Source of the DNA: an uncultured Cohaesibacter sp.
Lineage (GTDB): Bacteria; Pseudomonadota; Alphaproteobacteria; Rhizobiales; Cohaesibacteraceae
Reading direction: 5' to 3'
Assembly: GCF_963678225.1 (NCBI RefSeq)
Contig: NZ_OY782764.1
Location: forward strand, 2,485,001 to 2,549,000
Length of the DNA: 64,000 nt
Of the stretch, positions 27,401 through 33,925 are shown piece after piece. The stretch's first letter is position 1, and each line of letters starts with the position of its first letter. The notes beneath the pieces are model-generated. The model was not told the DNA's origin, did not search any database, and was given only the letters and a program-made list of their open reading frames with translations. A program made the translations under genes and the position numbers.

Positions 27401-28015
27401 ATGCAGGAACGGTATATCGGTATCCTTCTTTATGAAGGTGTTGAGGTGCTGGACTTTTCTGGTCCCTTCGAGGTCTTCACGACCGCGCGGCGGGTGGCCG
27501 AAAAGAATGGCGAGACCTTTGCCTATGCGCCCCTGCTGATTGCTTCAAGCTTGCAGCCGGTGCGTGCGCGGGCGAATTACAGGGTGTTGCCAGATCGTGA
27601 TTTTGCGTCGCATCCTGCTTTGGACGTCCTGCTTGTGCCCGGCGGGGTGCATGAGCCGCTGCTTGATGATGATCAACTGCTGGGCTGGGTCAAAGCCGAG
27701 GCCACTAAGGTTTCTTTGCTCACATCCGTTTGCACCGGCGCCTTCATTCTGGCTGAAGCGGGCTGCTGCTCCGGCAAGACAATGACCACCCATTGGGAAG
27801 ACATTCCCGATTTTCTCGAACGCTATCCCTCTATCGAATGCGTCCGGAATGTGCGTTGGGTGGAAGATGGGGCATTGATCAGCTCGGCAGGTATTTCCGC
27901 TGGCATCGATATGGCCCTGCAAATGGTGGCGCGGCTGGGGTCTGAAGATCTGGCAAAGAAGACCGCGCGGCAAATGGATTTTGACTGGACGCGCACCGGT
28001 CTCTCTATTGCATAG
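27401..28015 (+). CDS. DJ-1/PfpI family protein
   Basis: A 204-residue class I glutamine-amidotransferase-like protein. The start at MQERYIGILLYEGVEVLDFS follows AGGGGAGAA. The nucleophile elbow is TSVCTGAFILAEAG with Cys111. The preceding DVLLVPGGVHEPLLDD and the later WVEDGALISSAGISAGIDMA are typical of the branch containing isonitrile hydratase and the sensor domains of AraC/GATase regulators. No DNA-binding domain is present. It may act on a small electrophile or isonitrile, which cannot be fixed from sequence. It is probably co-transcribed with the MATE pump, suggesting a joint detoxification role. Confidence 0.88.
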   Translation: MQERYIGILLYEGVEVLDFSGPFEVFTTARRVAEKNGETFAYAPLLIASSLQPVRARANYRVLPDRDFASHPALDVLLVPGGVHEPLLDDDQLLGWVKAEATKVSLLTSVCTGAFILAEAGCCSGKTMTTHWEDIPDFLERYPSIECVRNVRWVEDGALISSAGISAGIDMALQMVARLGSEDLAKKTARQMDFDWTRTGLSIA

Positions 28016-28250
28016 CTTACCTAATGGCATCGCCTCCAAACTTTAAATGCCAACATATGCAAGAACATAAAAAGAGGCCTGAGCTTCTATGTGACCGGGT
28101 CGCAAGAAAACTCAGGCAAACTTCGGGGAAAACGCTTTCTATCGTGGGCACACTATCCTCCTAGTGGGAGGATGATCAAAAACGCATGTCCGGAAGCCAC
28201 CGCGCAAAGATGCGGCCAAAAAATGCTATAAGAAAGATATGCTGGATTAA

Positions 28251-28703
28251 TCAGGTTGTCGGCTTCTTGGGCGCCATGACAACGGCTTCTCCGGACATCA
28301 CCGCAAGGCCATCGACTTCGGCAGCGCAATCAAGCGTAACGCGGCGGCCCTTGTCTTGCAGGTCCTTCACAGTGGCTGTGACCGTCACCGTGTCGCCCGG
28401 TCGAACCGGCGCCTTGAATTGTAGGGTCTGGGAAACATAGATGGAGCCCGGCCCGGGAAGGCGCATGCCCAGAATGGCCGAAAGCAGGCTGGCGGTGTAG
28501 ATACCGTGGGCTATGTTGCTGCCAAATCGGCTAGCCGCGCCGTGAGCCTTGTCTATATGAATGGGGTTGTGGTCGCCGGTCAGATCGGCAAAAGCTGAAA
28601 TATCACTTTCAGTTACCGTGTGGGTCAGGCTTTCCTGCTGCCCGATCTGCATATCCTCATAATAGATTGTCCGTGGCGCGACGCCTGCAAGTGGTGCGGT
28701 CAT
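28251..28703 (-). CDS. MaoC-family (R)-specific hydratase
   Basis: A 150-residue hot-dog-fold protein. The start at MTAPLAGVAPRTIYYED follows GGGGAGGAAG; an upstream Met is less likely. The hydratase-2 motif is intact in FADLTGDHNPIHIDKAHGA, with the catalytic Asp44 and His49. It is followed by IAHGIYTASLLSAILGMRLP and VSQTLQFKAPVRPGDTV. The length matches PhaJ-type enoyl-CoA hydratases, which hydrate trans-2-enoyl-CoA in fatty-acid oxidation or polyhydroxyalkanoate supply. It stands alone, so the exact substrate is open. Confidence 0.9.
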   Translation of the reverse strand: MTAPLAGVAPRTIYYEDMQIGQQESLTHTVTESDISAFADLTGDHNPIHIDKAHGAASRFGSNIAHGIYTASLLSAILGMRLPGPGSIYVSQTLQFKAPVRPGDTVTVTATVKDLQDKGRRVTLDCAAEVDGLAVMSGEAVVMAPKKPTT

Positions 28704-29395
28704 TCTTCTTCCTCCCCTGGCCATTTGAGCCATAATCCCCCGGTGGCTCACTTTCCTGTTCATGCCACGCGCCGTCTGTTGTCGCTCTGTATCCTCTGTG
28801 CCATCTCTGTGCCATGGGCTGACTCATTGCTCTTGGCAAAAATCCCATTTTGAAGAGGTCTACATCCGGTCGTGAAATTTTGCAATGCAGCAAAATTGAG
28901 CATGTGCAACAAACGCACTGACGTCAACACGGCATAGGTCTATTGAGCCAAAGTGGAAGAAAAGAGGGGAAGAAAGCGGCTGGAAGCAGAAGCATTCACA
29001 GGCTTGTTACTTTTACCAAGATCGATGAAATGCACGTGCTGGCGTGTATTAAGATCCTGTGTCAAGACGCGCTGGCCCCATAGCGGCTCTCAGGGCTGTG
29101 ATCAAACCGGTCTCTTTATGGTTAATCGATATAAAGGTTAGTAAAGGCTGAATAAAATACTGCAGCTAGGTAAATATTGAAGCAAATTTCGATGATTTCC
29201 TAACAAAACAGGCCGTTTGTTAGGAATTTGGACTTACCCCGCCTTTTGCCAGTTAACCGCTTTTTTAAACCCTTGAGATAGTCTGCTCACCATGTCAGGG
29301 AACTCAGAATTCCCGAGCACAAAAAACCAACAGTCTGAAAAGTCGAAAATTCCGCTGATAAAGGCGGTAATGCAGTGTGAGTTTGGAGTAAACAA
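28704..29395. other. 692-base intergenic region upstream of cheY
   Basis: No credible coding frame. It carries the divergent maoC and cheY promoters, and the second half is distinctly AT-rich. It contains a perfect 11-bp dyad at 29197-29226, listed separately. The final 100 bases lead to cheY with a GGAG ribosome site. Confidence 0.5.
29197..29226. promoter_or_regulatory. Perfect 11-bp inverted repeat upstream of cheY
   Basis: TTCCTAACAAA (29197-29207) and TTTGTTAGGAA (29216-29226) form a perfect dyad with an 8-base spacer, 170 bases before the cheY start. No T-run follows on either strand, so an operator is more likely than a terminator. The binding protein is unknown. Confidence 0.45.
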
Positions 29396-29779
29396 ATGGC
29401 CCTCGATCTTTCTATGCCGGTACTGGTAGTCGATGACTATAAAACCATGATCCGCATCATCAAGAACCTGCTCAAGCAGCTTGGTTTTGAAGATGTAGAT
29501 GATGCTGCTGATGGAACCGAAGCTCTGGCGAAAATGCAGGATCGCCGTTATGGCCTTGTCATTTCCGACTGGAATATGGAGCCAATGACCGGTTACGAGC
29601 TTCTCAAGCAGGTTCGCGCAAGCGATTCCCTGTCCAAGACACCGTTCATCATGGTGACAGCCGAATCCAAGACCGAAAACGTGATTGCAGCCAAGAAGGC
29701 CGGTGTGAACAACTACATCGTTAAGCCATTCAACGCCGCAACGCTCAAAACCAAGATTGACGCTGTCTTCGATAGCTAG
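29396..29779 (+). CDS. cheY: Chemotaxis response regulator CheY
   Basis: A 127-residue single receiver domain. The acidic pocket is VLVVDDYKTM, the phospho-acceptor Asp lies in LVISDWNMEPMTGYELL, the conserved Thr in IMVTAESKTEN, and the Lys in NYIVKPFNAATL. WNMEPMTG with N and M flanking the Asp and the IRIIKNLLKQLGF helix are CheY-like, not those of a general receiver. It would bind the flagellar switch when phosphorylated. No CheA or MCP gene is adjacent; the CheZ gene follows after 347 bases on the same strand. Confidence 0.92.
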   Translation: MALDLSMPVLVVDDYKTMIRIIKNLLKQLGFEDVDDAADGTEALAKMQDRRYGLVISDWNMEPMTGYELLKQVRASDSLSKTPFIMVTAESKTENVIAAKKAGVNNYIVKPFNAATLKTKIDAVFDS

Positions 29780-30126
29780 GTCGATCACTCGCATTGCTAT
29801 CCTCCCGAAAGGGAAGAGGAATGCAGGATGATGATTGTTTGGTTGGGCCGCAGTGCCGGGCTTCTTGCCCGGCGAGCTCCTCGGCTAGACAATGGGCTTG
29901 AAGCAATGAGTGCCAAAAGCCACGCAATTCTCCCTTGAAAATGATGACAGGGGACTTCGCCGCAGGATCTATCCCGCGGTCTACGGTAGCGCCTACCGCA
30001 AATCTCGCCTTTGACGGGAAATAAAACATATAGGCGCTTTGAGCGATGAGGTTGCAGAAACATTTTGAAATGGTTGGGCGATCAAGTCGATCAGATTTCT
30101 GAAATCAGACCCAAGGGGAAGATGAA
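29780..30126. other. 347-base gap between cheY and cheZ
   Basis: No gene seen. A weak hairpin just after cheY (TCCT-CCC, loop GAAA, GGG-AAG-AGGA, near 29801-29821) may attenuate transcription. CGGTAG-CGC-CTACCG near 29984-29998 is a second small dyad. The two genes could still be co-transcribed. Confidence 0.35.
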
Positions 30127-30855
30127 ATGGCAGCAGAAGCAGAACAGCTAAGTGCGGAAAAAGTCGCACAACTCGTTGCTTTTCTAGAAAAGAACAAGGG
30201 AGAAGCCGTCTCCCTGAATGATATCATGGCTCTGGCAGAGGTCATGGCGAACAGCCTTGATTCCTATTTGCAAGCCATGGACAAGACCCTTTATGAAGAG
30301 TTTACGTCCATCGCGACTGAGATTTCATCCATGAAAGATGAAATTGCCGCCTTGCGTCCCTCGCAAATGCGCCATGCCGCCATCCCTGATGCCGGGCGCG
30401 AACTGGACGCCGTCGTCGAAGCGACGGAAAATGCAACAAACATCATCATGTCCTCCGCTGAAGAAATCATGGGCGCTGATCCAAGCGACTCTGAGGCCTA
30501 TCAGGCGTTGGTCAATGACAAGGTCATCGAGATTTTCGAGGCTTGTTCCTTCCAGGATATTACGGGCCAGCGTATCTCCAAGGTCGTACACGCTCTCAAT
30601 GTGATCGACAAGCGGGTCACCACTTTTGTTGAGCGCATGAAGATGACGGATTTCGAGGATGCCAACTATGTCGAAGTTGAATCCGATGAAGATCGCCGCA
30701 AGCGCGAATTGATCCTTCATGGTCCGCAGCATGCAGGCGAAGGGGTTGAGCAGGATGAAGTGGATGCCATGCTGGCGGATCTGGACTTCAGTAATAAAAA
30801 ACTGAAGGACGAAGAAGACAGCAGCCAAGACGATATCGACGCCCTGTTTGGCTAA
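30127..30855 (+). CDS. cheZ: Protein phosphatase CheZ
   Basis: A 242-residue, mostly helical CheZ. The catalytic stretch EACSFQDITGQRISKVVHAL carries Asp144 and Gln148, matching Asp143 and Gln147 of E. coli CheZ, the Gln being the residue that activates water to dephosphorylate CheY-P. The C-terminus holds two tail motifs. EQDEVDAMLADLDF (208-221) follows the E. coli CheY-binding tail residue by residue in pattern. A second, SQDDIDALFG, forms the very end (233-242). The latter kind of ending is found on several chemotaxis proteins. It lies downstream of cheY on the same strand. A strong terminator follows. Confidence 0.9.
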   Translation: MAAEAEQLSAEKVAQLVAFLEKNKGEAVSLNDIMALAEVMANSLDSYLQAMDKTLYEEFTSIATEISSMKDEIAALRPSQMRHAAIPDAGRELDAVVEATENATNIIMSSAEEIMGADPSDSEAYQALVNDKVIEIFEACSFQDITGQRISKVVHALNVIDKRVTTFVERMKMTDFEDANYVEVESDEDRRKRELILHGPQHAGEGVEQDEVDAMLADLDFSNKKLKDEEDSSQDDIDALFG

Positions 30856-30897
30856 GCGGTCTTGCTTTGCTGGCTATGATTTCAGGTAAGACTTACA

Positions 30898-30927
30898 AAG
30901 CCGGGCAATGAGCTCGGCTTTTTCTTT
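30898..30927 (+). terminator. Intrinsic terminator of cheZ
   Basis: AAGCCGGGC (30898-30906) pairs with GCTCGGCTT (30912-30920) with one G-T wobble around AATGA, followed by TTTCTTT. It lies about 40 bases past the cheZ stop. Confidence 0.8.
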
Positions 30928-30940
30928 GTACGAAAGCCGC

Positions 30941-30990
30941 GACATCCTAAAATGTTTAGAAAAGTGGGGCCGCCGCCTTCACGACCGGTC
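30941..30990 (-). pseudogene. Remnant 2 of the ETF-QO 3' end (most decayed)
   Basis: On the minus strand this stretch reads E-G-G-G-P-T-F-L-N-I-L, against E-G-G-G-G-P-T-Y-P-N-M-stop at the end of intact ETF-QO. One codon is deleted and the stop is lost. The plus-strand block AAGTGGGGCCGCC and the flanking GACATCC are shared with the intact gene end at 31188-31220. It is a second decayed tail, more diverged than the one at 31052. Confidence 0.6.
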
Positions 30991-30994
30991 AGCA

Positions 30995-31032
30995 GATAGG
31001 CCATGCGGGGTTTCCCGCATGATGAGCCTATC
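30995..31032. repeat. Hairpin A of a related hairpin pair
   Basis: GATAGGC-CATGCGGG-GTTT-CCCGCATG-ATGA-GCCTATC: outer 7-bp and inner 8-bp stems with a 4-base asymmetric bulge on the right arm. The same design is seen at 31134-31172 with different but still paired bases. No T-run follows on either strand. Confidence 0.7.
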
Positions 31033-31051
31033 GTCAGGAAAGCATGGACCG

Positions 31052-31131
31052 TTACATGTTCGGATAAGTCGGCCCTCCGCCGCCTTCCGGTACGGTCTAT
31101 GTGATGTTGCCGTTCGGGTCCTTGATGTCAC
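31052..31131 (-). pseudogene. Remnant 1 of the ETF-QO 3' end (last 26 codons)
   Basis: These 80 bases align without gaps to the true gene end (31195-31274), with 72 identical positions. On the minus strand it encodes DIKDPNGNIT, a TAG in place of the Trp codon, then TVPEGGGGPTYPNM and TAA. Of the eight differences, seven are silent third-position changes and one is the Trp-to-stop change. It is therefore the end of a diverged but formerly functional ETF-QO gene. Confidence 0.85.
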
Positions 31132-31133
31132 CA

Positions 31134-31172
31134 GATAAGCCTCGCGAGGCTCGCCCGCGAGATAAGCTTATC
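31134..31172. repeat. Hairpin B of a related hairpin pair
   Basis: GATAAGC-CTCGCG-loop-CGCGAG-ATAA-GCTTATC: outer 7-bp and inner 6-bp stems with the same 4-base right-arm bulge as hairpin A (30995-31032). It lies 22 bases past the intact ETF-QO stop and may be its processing or stability element. Confidence 0.7.
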
Positions 31173-31194
31173 GGCAAAAGGGATTGTGACATCC

Positions 31195-32886
31195 TTACAT
31201 GTTCGGATAAGTGGGGCCGCCACCGCCTTCCGGGACGGTCCATGTGATATTGCCGTTCGGATCCTTGATGTCACAAGTCTTGCAATGGACGCAGTTGGCG
31301 GCGTTGATGACATAGCTTGGTTCATCGCCGCTTTCATCCCATTCATAAACCGCCGCCGGGCAGAAGCGCTGGGAAAGACCGGCATAGACATCATGCTCGG
31401 ACCTTTTCTGCAGGGCCTCGTCGGCAACCACCAGATGGCAGGGCTGATCTTCCTCATGGTTGGCACCCGATAGATAAACCGAACTCAGCCGATCAAAGGT
31501 GATCTCGCCATCCGGTTTGGGATAGTCGATTGGTTTGCACTGGGCTGCGGGCAGGGTGGCCTTCGCGTCCGTTTTGCCATGAGCCAGTGTGCCAAAAAAT
31601 GAGAAGCCGAACAGTGTGTTGGTCCACATATCAAGACCGCCAAGGCCCACCCCAAGAAACAGGCCAAGTTTGGCCCAAAGCGGCTTGACGTTGCGTACCT
31701 TGAACAGATCCTTGCCAATCGGCCCCTTGCGCCAGCTTTCCTCGAAGGCGACTAGCTCGTCATTGGCGCGTCCTTCCGCCAAGGCATCAACCACGGCGTT
31801 GGCGGCAAATATGCCCGAATCCATCGCGTTATGAATGCCCTTGATGCGCGGAACATTGACGAAGCCCGCGGCGCAACCGATCAGCGCTCCACCGGGGAAG
31901 GTAAGGCGCGGCACGGACTGATAGCCGCCTTCCGCAATGCAGCGGGCGCCATAGGAAAGGCGCTTGCCCCCTTCAAACAGCGGCTTGACCGTCGGATGGG
32001 TCTTGAAGCGCTGGAATTCTTCAAACGGGGAAAGATACGGGTTCTTGTAGTTGAGATAGACCACAAGGCCTACGGCAACCTGATTGTCTTCCATGTGATA
32101 GAGGAAGGAGCCGCCGCCTGTGGAGCTGTCCAGCGGCCAGCCGAATGTATGCTCGATCAGACCTTCTTGATGCTTGGCTGGGTCGACTTCCCAAATTTCC
32201 TTGATGCCAAGGCCGAATTTCGGCACATCGCAATCCTTGTCCAGCGTATATTTGCCAATCAACTGCTTGGCCAGAGACCCGCGTACGCCTTCACTGATCA
32301 GCGTATATTTGCCCAGAAGCTCCATGCCGCGCATGTAGGTGTCCTTGGGCTGGCCATCCTTGCCAAGGCCCATGTCGCCAGTGGCCACACCGCGCACCGC
32401 GCCCTTGTCGTCATAGAGCAATTCTGCGGCGGCAAAACCGGGATAGACTTCCACGCCCATCTCTTCGGCCTTTTCAGCCAGCCAGCGGCACAGATTGCCA
32501 AGAGAAATGATATAGTTACCATGGTTATGCATCAGCGGCGGCATGATGAAGCCGGGAAGACTGATCGCGCCGGCAGGTCCGAGCAGGCGGAACTTGTCTT
32601 TCTTGACAGCCACTTTCACCGGGCAGCTTTCATCTTCTTTCCAGTCGGGGATAAGGCGGCTGAGCGCCACCGGATCAATCACCGCGCCGGAAAGAATATG
32701 CGCGCCCACTTCCGAGCCCTTCTCCAGAACCACCACCGAGATATCTTCATTCTTCTCGGCTGCCTGTTGCTTGATGCGAATGGCGGCAGACAGCCCGGCA
32801 GGCCCTGCACCAACGATCACCACGTCGAATTCCATGCTTTCACGTTCAGGAAGTTCGCTCACTTCAGTTCCGTTCGACTCTGTCAT
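31195..32886 (-). CDS. Electron transfer flavoprotein-ubiquinone oxidoreductase
   Basis: A 563-residue membrane-associated flavoprotein that passes electrons from ETF (fatty-acid and amino-acid oxidation) to ubiquinone. The FAD-binding Rossmann motif is FDVVIVGAGPAGLSAAIR, followed by VVLEKGSEVGAHILSGAVID. The conserved middle has YGARCIAEGGYQSVPRLTFP and GALIGCAAGFVNVPRIKGIH. The C-terminal 4Fe-4S domain shows FCPAAVYEW and NAANCVHCKTCDIKDPNGNI. The length is normal. No etfA or etfB is in the window. Downstream lie two decayed copies of its own 3' end with related hairpins. The start has AAAAGGACC before it. Confidence 0.96.
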   Translation of the reverse strand: MTESNGTEVSELPERESMEFDVVIVGAGPAGLSAAIRIKQQAAEKNEDISVVVLEKGSEVGAHILSGAVIDPVALSRLIPDWKEDESCPVKVAVKKDKFRLLGPAGAISLPGFIMPPLMHNHGNYIISLGNLCRWLAEKAEEMGVEVYPGFAAAELLYDDKGAVRGVATGDMGLGKDGQPKDTYMRGMELLGKYTLISEGVRGSLAKQLIGKYTLDKDCDVPKFGLGIKEIWEVDPAKHQEGLIEHTFGWPLDSSTGGGSFLYHMEDNQVAVGLVVYLNYKNPYLSPFEEFQRFKTHPTVKPLFEGGKRLSYGARCIAEGGYQSVPRLTFPGGALIGCAAGFVNVPRIKGIHNAMDSGIFAANAVVDALAEGRANDELVAFEESWRKGPIGKDLFKVRNVKPLWAKLGLFLGVGLGGLDMWTNTLFGFSFFGTLAHGKTDAKATLPAAQCKPIDYPKPDGEITFDRLSSVYLSGANHEEDQPCHLVVADEALQKRSEHDVYAGLSQRFCPAAVYEWDESGDEPSYVINAANCVHCKTCDIKDPNGNITWTVPEGGGGPTYPNM

Positions 32887-32998
32887 GTGAAGGTCCTTTT
32901 CATTATCCGGTCGACAGGCTTTCTATCGACACTTATCGCAGTTGGCCCTATAAGGAGTATCATTAGCGGAAAAAGAAGCCCGAATCCAAGTGTTCAAT

Positions 32999-33925
32999 AT
33001 GCATAACGTGGTGACAACATCTCATGATCTGAAAGCCCTCCTCGACTGGTACGAGGCGATGGGCGTAGATTGTGCTGTTGATGCTGCACCGCAAGATCGC
33101 TTTGCTGAAAGCCTACGACAGGCCCAAGCGCGCCAGAAGGCGCGACCAGCACAGGAATCTCAGCAAAACAGGCCTTCTCCCCCTCAAAGTCCTTCCAATA
33201 GATCTACGCCAGCGGGTGCGGGCAATCAATCCCGTCCTTCGTCCAATGCTGCAGCGCACAATGCTTCGGCCGCCGGAGCGCCGGGGGGGCTGCCCACCAA
33301 TGCACAGGGCGCCGTTGAAAATGCACGGGCACTGGCGCTGCAGGCCAGCAGTCTGGATCAATTGCGCCAAACACTGGCATCCTTTGAAGGCTGCAGTCTC
33401 AAATTCTCCGCGAAAAATCTCGTATTCGGAGATGGCAATCCCAATGCTGACGTCATGTTCATCGGCGAAGCGCCGGGGCGGGACGAGGATTTGCAAGGTG
33501 TGCCGTTTGTCGGTAGGGCAGGGCAACTGCTCGACAAGATGATGGCGGCGATCAATATGGACCGCAGCAATAGCTACATCACCAATATCCTGCCATGGCG
33601 CCCGCCGGGTAACCGCAAGCCGAGCCTTGATGAACAGAACCTGATGCAGCCCTTCATTCATCGGCATATCGAACTGGTCAACCCCAAGATTCTGGTCTTT
33701 CTGGGGGGCACATCTGCCCAGCAATTGCTTGGTAGCAAGGATGGCATCATGCGTCTGCGCGGACGCTGGAGAAGCTATTCCATCGGCGGGCAGGATAAGC
33801 CCCAGCGCGATATTCCCGTCATGGCCACCTTGCATCCGGCCTTTCTGCTGCGCACCCCTGCGCAAAAGCGCGCCGCCTGGCAAGATTTGCTGGAAGTGGC
33901 CGCCAAGCTTGATGCTCTTGGCTAG
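32999..33925 (+). CDS. Family-4-like uracil-DNA glycosylase lacking most Fe-S cysteines
   Basis: A 308-residue protein. The N-terminal segment includes [14 protein letters not shown], then a ~60-residue Gln/Ser/Pro/Ala-rich linker (about 40-105). The UDG domain follows: motif [21 protein letters not shown], then [48 protein letters not shown] and motif [16 protein letters not shown]. It excises uracil from DNA in base excision repair. Three of the four cysteines of the family-4 cluster are replaced (Phe, Trp and Met positions), so an iron-sulfur cluster is unlikely. A GTG at 32990 is an alternative start. A bidirectional terminator follows. Confidence 0.88.

Follow-up and report, generated by a model that had tools for sequence, protein, structure and literature searches.

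The window, a stretch of 64,000 nucleotides from an uncultured Cohaesibacter sp., carries on its minus strand an intact gene for electron transfer flavoprotein-ubiquinone oxidoreductase (ETF-QO; open reading frame 31195..32886, 563 amino acids; Pfam Fer4_ETF_QO, 3.8e-44, and ETFQO_UQ-bd, 6.6e-43). The features described below lie on the same strand and are given in the direction of the gene. Within the coding sequence (CDS), a short motif, X (TTGTGACATC, 31267..31276), marks the beginning of a stretch that is found again downstream; the duplication begins inside X, at GTGACATC, and the coding tail after X, stop included, occupies 31195..31266. One base past the stop lies the reverse complement of X, termed X' (GATGTCACAA, 31184..31193, a type A arm), a 10-nt match that none of 200 shuffles equaled in length. 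X' is followed by a pyrimidine-rich tract with TTTTGCC at its end (31173..31183), by hairpin A (GATAAGC...GCTTATC, 31134..31172) with a 4-nt one-sided bulge, and by a first copy of the tail (31052..31131; 72/80 identical), which ends with TAA and contains an internal TAG. Next come a type B arm (CGGTCCATG, 31043..31051), complementary, by eye, to CATGGACCG of the tail (CATAGACCG in copy 1), a second pyrimidine-rich tract (CTTTCCTGAC, 31033..31042), hairpin B (GATAGGC...GCCTATC, 30995..31032) and a second copy of the tail (30948..30990) that is decayed, shorter and devoid of a stop. A remnant of a type A arm, recognized by eye, lies 3' of copy 2 (GGATGTCGC, 30939..30947). Counted back from the end of the stop, type A copies begin at about 80 nt and form a unit of about 143 nt, while type B copies begin at about 46 nt and form a unit of about 105 nt; the array in the window consists of one copy of each. 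Compared with shuffled sequence, the fold of hairpin B with its spacer had a clearly higher stability (z -3.9), that of hairpin A with its spacer only a modestly higher one (z -1.5). Beyond the array, a CheZ-family gene (30127-30855) converges with ETF-QO, and a terminator-like hairpin can be seen by eye between the two genes (~30897-30923).

An earlier note on this DNA had described the two copies but neither the hairpins (31134-31172 and 30995-31032) nor the CDS-complementary arms (31184-31193 and 31043-31051). Its account of the near copy was reproduced exactly: 31052-31131 aligns with 31195-31274 at 72 of 80 positions without gaps, seven codons (D, N, V, G, G, G and P) differ silently at position 3, and the TGG of the tryptophan has become TAG. 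The match to the ETF-QO tail reaches 83 nt at 89% identity. The TAG breaks the pairing of copy 1 with its own arm, and the arm still fits TGG, so the TAG probably arose later than this pairing. The farther copy, said to be shorter and more decayed, is indeed both, and we place it at ~30948-30990 with its stop lost. Positions 30941-30977 are 84% identical to 31188-31224 and positions 30970-30990 are 81% identical to the near copy; by script, this copy covers 30 nt with 6 mismatches and ends at 30948. The note had also considered chance matches of a Gly/Pro-rich gene end, and these could be excluded. Indeed, when 395 long ORFs in 464 kb of the window genome (a 400-kb sample plus the window) were scanned, the ETF-QO tail scored 46 against its own downstream 300 nt, compared to 15 for the next best gene, and control gene heads and gene middles scored at most 16. 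Within this sample, the repeated-tail anatomy was found in 1 of the 395 genes, ETF-QO itself.

Gene tail and hairpin together are a repeat unit. Along the gene, the unit opens with X (about 8 to 13 nt, within the CDS) and the coding tail with its stop; X', a pyrimidine tract and the hairpin GATARGC...GCYTATC follow, and after TKG the next X-tail begins. Across genomes of Cohaesibacter, a marine bacterium, we found this anatomy at five unrelated genes: ETF-QO, sdaA, an HIBDH-like gene, msrA and recQ. ETF-QO was followed in 16 of the 18 genus genomes (G004 and G008, where matches are broken at contig ends, were left out), and one to four tail copies each were present in 14 of these 16 readable loci. 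The array is absent from the ETF-QO locus of G005, and that of G017 has the arm and a broken hairpin but lacks a tail copy. Among the 12 sdaA loci read, which came in through hairpin matches and are for this reason biased towards arrays, copies were detected by script in 11, and a short match was seen by eye in the remaining one (G000). The HIBDH-like gene is annotated as 2-hydroxy-3-oxopropionate/3-hydroxyisobutyrate dehydrogenase-like; we name it only "-like" and leave its exact substrate unassigned because its scores lie below the curated cut-offs. Copies follow it in 8 of 18 genomes (all 18 loci read; the script was applied to nine loci and found copies in eight, and the other nine had none by eye). 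msrA was matched in 17 of 18 genomes, its C-terminus pattern was recovered in 16, and copies were present at 4 of these 16 loci. An array at recQ was found in G008, the one genome in which recQ was read. Two further loci, L032 and L118, have such hairpins without a clear tail copy and were left out of the counts.

The copies differ widely in their state of preservation. In G015, all four downstream copies are free of mismatches, and the units of G001 are nearly identical, while the farthest copies frequently have no stop codon. This loss fits an older age, and it also fits the decay that is usual at the edges of tandem arrays. At three loci, L060 (G010) behind sdaA and L013 (G012) and L017 (G010) behind ETF-QO, hairpins stand head to tail at a spacing of 47-48 nt with no tail copy between them.

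The hairpin is a short imperfect palindrome with a 14-pair stem and a 4-nt one-sided bulge on its 5' side. Its outer stem, GATARGC/GCYTATC, is nearly invariant, and in our alignment of these hairpins (A1) the flanks are mostly GNC|GATA and TATC|TKG. The inner stem covaries: 91.8% of the cells are paired over the whole structure versus 74.1% in shuffles, and two-sided changes occur in 73 cells versus 24.4 in shuffles, the inner stem alone being independent evidence, as the outer stem of A1 was chosen by a pattern that demands pairing. Tandem hairpins at further loci were found by a pattern search of the genus genomes. The bare pattern is noisy (0 to 6 matches per genome with the reversed-pattern control), and the sites followed were clustered or model-supported ones only. 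We then built a covariance model (R2) from 29 hairpins, which include hairpins A and B (E 3.5e-12 and 4.9e-14, respectively, each sequence being also part of the model). At E up to 0.1, it matches 17 of the 18 genus genomes; the window genome has 4 matches, including a weak one (E 0.07), and G010 has 19, of which 6 lie at sdaA and ETF-QO. At E up to 1e-3, all genus matches outside G010 lie at tails of the five genes; the weaker matches in G013 and G000 (G013:C1:280525 and, weak, G000:C2:161872) are not all at such tails or were not read. Among 397 genomes of the order, searched with stricter filters and at E up to 0.001, the model matched 24 genomes from 2 of 141 genera, namely Cohaesibacter and one other (g36).

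In both G010 and g36, the hairpin lies inside a larger dispersed repeat. That of G010 is an intergenic composite (CTCACGGCTATTCC...hairpin...; loci L099-L107) with 29 matching pieces in its own genome, 1 to 3 pieces in G017, G004 and G008, and none in the other 14 genus genomes. In g36, which belongs to another family of the order, a similar hairpin module occurs in a dispersed repeat that often starts with CTCACGGCTATT (L146-L157). The inner parts of the G010 sdaA hairpins have a mean identity of 0.76-0.78 to those of seven dispersed G010 hairpins, and of at most 0.68 to those of the sdaA hairpins of 11 other species. Because the G010 sdaA hairpins are closer to the dispersed copies of their own genome than to the sdaA hairpins of other species, the hairpin sequence seems to travel inside a genome.

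We also compared X' with the CDS that it faces. X' matches its own CDS over 9-13 nt in 11 of the 16 ETF-QO loci. The Thr codon of X occurs as ACT, ACC, ACG or ACA, with the type A arm reading CACAA, CACAG, CACACG or CACATGT, respectively, the exception being the ETF-QO of G010 (codon ACT, arm CACTG). Similarly, four different X sequences occur in msrA, each with its own complementary arm of 9-12 nt, and the HIBDH-like gene of G016 has a 12-nt arm and half a hairpin in the absence of a tail copy. The sdaA arms are short (5-8 nt), and 11 of 12 fail to beat shuffles at 0.05; the arms of ETF-QO in G013, G006 and G015 and of the HIBDH-like gene in G001, G005 and G012 were also weak in the shuffle test. 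The ETF-QO arm usually fits the CDS of related species as well as its own, since related species share codons, and the arms of G011 and G016 have a longer match in the CDS of another species. Judged by these comparisons, X' tracks silent codon variants of X in many loci.

ETF-QO, the gene examined in other genera, also repeats its end there. Among 76 of 78 such loci, those with enough sequence, 8 have a repeated gene end (scores of 22-29 versus a median of 9). The unit is 74-77 nt long at five of them and longer at two Ochrobactrum/Brucella loci and one metagenome-assembled genome. By eye, different palindromes take the place of the Cohaesibacter hairpin, and in L195, L179, L220 and other Rhizobiales ETF-QO loci with units of about 75 nt the stop codon lies in the hairpin loop, so that the 5' arm is coding. 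The arms are long in L199 (13 nt) and L234 (14 nt), with none of 200 shuffles giving as long a match, and weak by the longest-match test in the remaining six loci. In L179, a matching change occurs inside a single array, successive units having CCAAATATG/TATTTGG and CCAAACATG/TGTTTGG. In another locus, L021 (G031), the last 16-19 nt of ETF-QO are repeated right after the stop, and we saw no hairpin between them.

We next analyzed how the copies differ from the genes that they follow. In 73 Cohaesibacter copy pairs from the five genes (29 ETF-QO, 28 sdaA, 10 HIBDH-like, 5 msrA and 1 recQ), mismatches at the three codon positions number 38, 43 and 266, the third position accounting for 266 of 347. 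The 296 changed codons comprise 244 silent, 50 replacement and 2 stop changes. Random change would give a silent share of 19-27%. Had each copy arisen by one duplication after which both members drifted, the share would reach about 43% at most, under a generous assumption. As several related copies are set against one gene, the counts and P values are not independent and show a trend. The bias is weaker in the other genera (17 silent versus 8 replacement changes; 12 pairs from 8 loci). These counts support the view that the untranslated copies bear the mark of gene ends once under coding constraint. They also agree with the argument of the earlier note that neutral decay would leave too few silent-only changes, the 244 of 296 found lying far above the 19-27% expected from random change.

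The two ETF-QO paralogues of G002 differ at 9 of 72 positions in the tail versus 2 of 531 in the adjoining body (Fisher test, 1.4e-7) and 26 of 1620 in the whole body (8.0e-6). Furthermore, the tail of the second G002 gene has as its closest match a downstream copy in G003 (4/80 differ), while the G003 gene body is only 85% identical to that of this gene. The homology of the two G002 genes stops exactly at the first base of the hairpin, whose edge thus seems to act as a breakpoint in this pair. At the other end (L067, G002:C1:192500-196500, the second gene, compared with L003), the homology starts ~20-35 nt before the expected start codon. By eye, two tail subtypes coexist within one array of G009. 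Since array-free control pairs (three for the HIBDH-like gene and four for msrA) gave tail-to-body ratios of 0-1.8, we took only ratios well above 2 as an excess. For ETF-QO, such ratios were obtained for G002/G009 (4.6), G002b/G009 (4.1), G000/G002b (3.0) and G000/G002 (2.7). Similarly, the sdaA tails of G006 and G001 differ at 7 of 27 positions versus 4.3% in the body, and those of G007 and G012 at 9 of 27 versus 6.4%. No excess was found for the ETF-QO pairs G003/G006 (0.2), G001/G003 (1.2), G001/G006 (1.3) and G000/G009 (1.7), for sdaA in G000/G009 (1.1), or for four HIBDH array pairs (0.3-1.6). On the basis of these sequence comparisons, tail exchange is evident in some lineages and not in all. 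The earlier note had proposed that the near copy stems from a separately evolved functional allele, and this part of its explanation is supported: the near copy differs at 4/80 positions from the functional G009 tail, of another species, and at 8/80 from its own, the copies have 244 silent versus 50 replacement changes, and the G002 paralogues show a localized tail replacement.

Several known systems resemble the array in part. Clusters of the GTAG/CGTC families of REPs consist, according to passages of PMC3733652, of short palindromes near genes in tandem repeats with flanking DNA segments, and some REPs overlap coding regions or provide a TAG stop codon; the Cohaesibacter array shares with them the short palindrome close to a gene and the tandem cluster with flanking DNA. 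Unlike in REPs, the flanking segment is a coding tail with its stop, an arm is complementary to the CDS, and the copies show silent-biased divergence and tail exchange. In addition, we found no GTAG at the hairpin foot in the A1 flanks, and the presence of a Y1 transposase, seen in 9 of 18 genus genomes, does not follow the distribution of the arrays. Lacking both the foot motif and the transposase link, the array is best filed as a variant of REP-like repeats outside the GTAG REP family. RIME and other rhizobial intergenic palindromes (PMC2573895) are dispersed palindromic modules of Rhizobiales, as is the hairpin module within the composite repeats of G010 and g36. In contrast to RIME, the Cohaesibacter matches outside G010 (E up to 1e-3) are confined to five gene tails. 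In the IS200/IS605 and REP/TnpA systems, a hairpin carries at its foot a guide that pairs with the cut site. The array resembles them in having a hairpin with a putative guide-like arm at its foot (compare PMC8266576 and PMC5934647). The Cohaesibacter arm, however, is long and gene-specific, and a consistent Y1 enzyme is absent. Silent-cassette systems such as pilE/pilS use silent partial copies as donors for an expressed end. The tail copies resemble these donors, but the ends exchanged in Cohaesibacter encode nearly the same protein. The changes between gene and near copy (T/C, C/A, C/G and G/A, 7 of 8 at third positions) are not limited to template adenines, which does not fit a diversity-generating retroelement. 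Among the papers listed by searches of an open library, we met no report of gene-tail and hairpin arrays, nor of a coding tail as the constant partner of a palindrome, an arm that matches the CDS, or an exchange of tails.

Starting from what is observed, namely the anatomy at five genes, the covariation of the inner stem, the silent bias and the local tail replacement in some pairs, we favor with moderate confidence a REP-like hairpin array whose copies would swap with the translated tail, an exchange that is clear in some lineages but not in all. The locus would be a small tandem array of hairpin-bounded units, each holding the 3' end of a gene. Because all copies start at one point of the reading frame and most carry a stop, an exchange would be harmless: deletion, duplication or conversion between near-identical tails would keep the gene intact and alter the copy that is translated. 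The copies would rotate between coding and silent positions, and those at the far edge would decay. Selection acting during the coding turn would explain why most of their changes are silent. Copy number would most likely change by slipped-strand or unequal recombination, aided by the hairpins, and the hairpin itself would be a REP-like module able to move, or to undergo conversion, inside a genome. The copies look as if they are able to alternate as the translated gene end. This reading is drawn from comparing one genome per species, and it covers the turnover of the array rather than the founding event that joined hairpin and tail copy.

Direct repeats flanking hairpins are expected to be unstable, and the arrays could owe their existence to ordinary tandem duplication by slippage once a hairpin had arisen behind the gene. 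The copies would then drift, the silent bias would come from the coding copy only, and the identical units in G015 and near-identical ones in G001 would be recent products. We regard this account as doubtful, since even under the generous assumption it predicts about 43% silent changes against 244 of the 296 codon changes observed, and it leaves the common hairpin core at five genes and the G002 paralogues unexplained. Alternatively, X and X' could pair around the stop, or X' with the next x, as alternative 3' UTR structures of a functional RNA element that would control mRNA decay or translation termination, the arrays being tolerated extras. The matched changes in X/X' and in the inner stem fit such a role, as do, in other genera, the stop in the hairpin loop and the long arms (13-14 nt) of L199 and L234. 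However, the five genes have no obvious common function, the element is absent from the ETF-QO locus of G005, and 12 of 16 msrA loci lack tail copies. Template-switch correction of imperfect palindromes could equally make X' follow X, and a search of window positions 28000-33500 and 14 loci against the Rfam families gave nothing at the gathering score except a tRNA in L113. An RNA element is thus quite unlikely as the main explanation.

In another alternative, the array would be a guide-directed single-strand mobile element, with X' acting like the guide that IS200/IS605 or REP hairpins carry at their foot. X' would pair with the upstream X, taken as the left cleavage site, and with an x 3' of the hairpin, taken as the right one. 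A circle of tail, stop, X', hairpin and x would be excised and inserted at X, so that a new gene end comes in and the previous one is displaced downstream. The geometry of guide, hairpin and site is present (X', hairpin and x, with X upstream), cutting being putative; copies start about where X' pairs, at two places in ETF-QO (types A and B) and in the other genes; and the hairpin sequence seems to move within G010. Nevertheless, we consider such an element unlikely. Only 9 of 18 genomes have a Y1 transposase (PF01797), which carriers such as G001, G006, G014, G016 and others lack, no excised form and no empty/filled strain pair was seen in the comparison of one genome per species, and X' exceeds the tetranucleotide that IS608 recognizes according to PMC5934647. 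With PF01797 in 9 of 18 genomes and not tracking the arrays, RAYT/Y1 is also disfavored as a common mobilizer. It is similarly improbable that the unit is a minimal, gene-free mobile cassette of 105-145 nt that would supply one particular host gene with a new end, with the arm complementary to the CDS setting the insertion point, the insertion inside the gene being harmless and the old ends left behind as a record. Islands that restore the gene end at which they integrate are known, and most copies carry the terminal stop, as would be left by serial integration and loss of islands at the 3' end of the gene, the other part of the explanation in the earlier note. This part did not hold. The window has neither an integrase signature nor a tRNA, the stretches between the copies are ~60 nt long with a hairpin and without cargo, which also led us to reject an integrative element at the 3' end, and in relatives we found arrays of one small unit instead of inserted islands, with only short units between the copies in the 14 Cohaesibacter ETF-QO loci that have them. 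Island integration is therefore extremely improbable.

If, as in the REP-like array with tail exchange that we favor, copies take turns in the coding position, some housekeeping genes would have ends that evolve by local exchange instead of by point mutation in step with the remainder of the gene. Near gene ends, silent-site distances and trees would then be distorted. The arrays would hold a stock of alternative gene endings governed by a built-in reading-frame rule, and they would offer a testable setting for the spread of palindromic repeats without an evident transposase.
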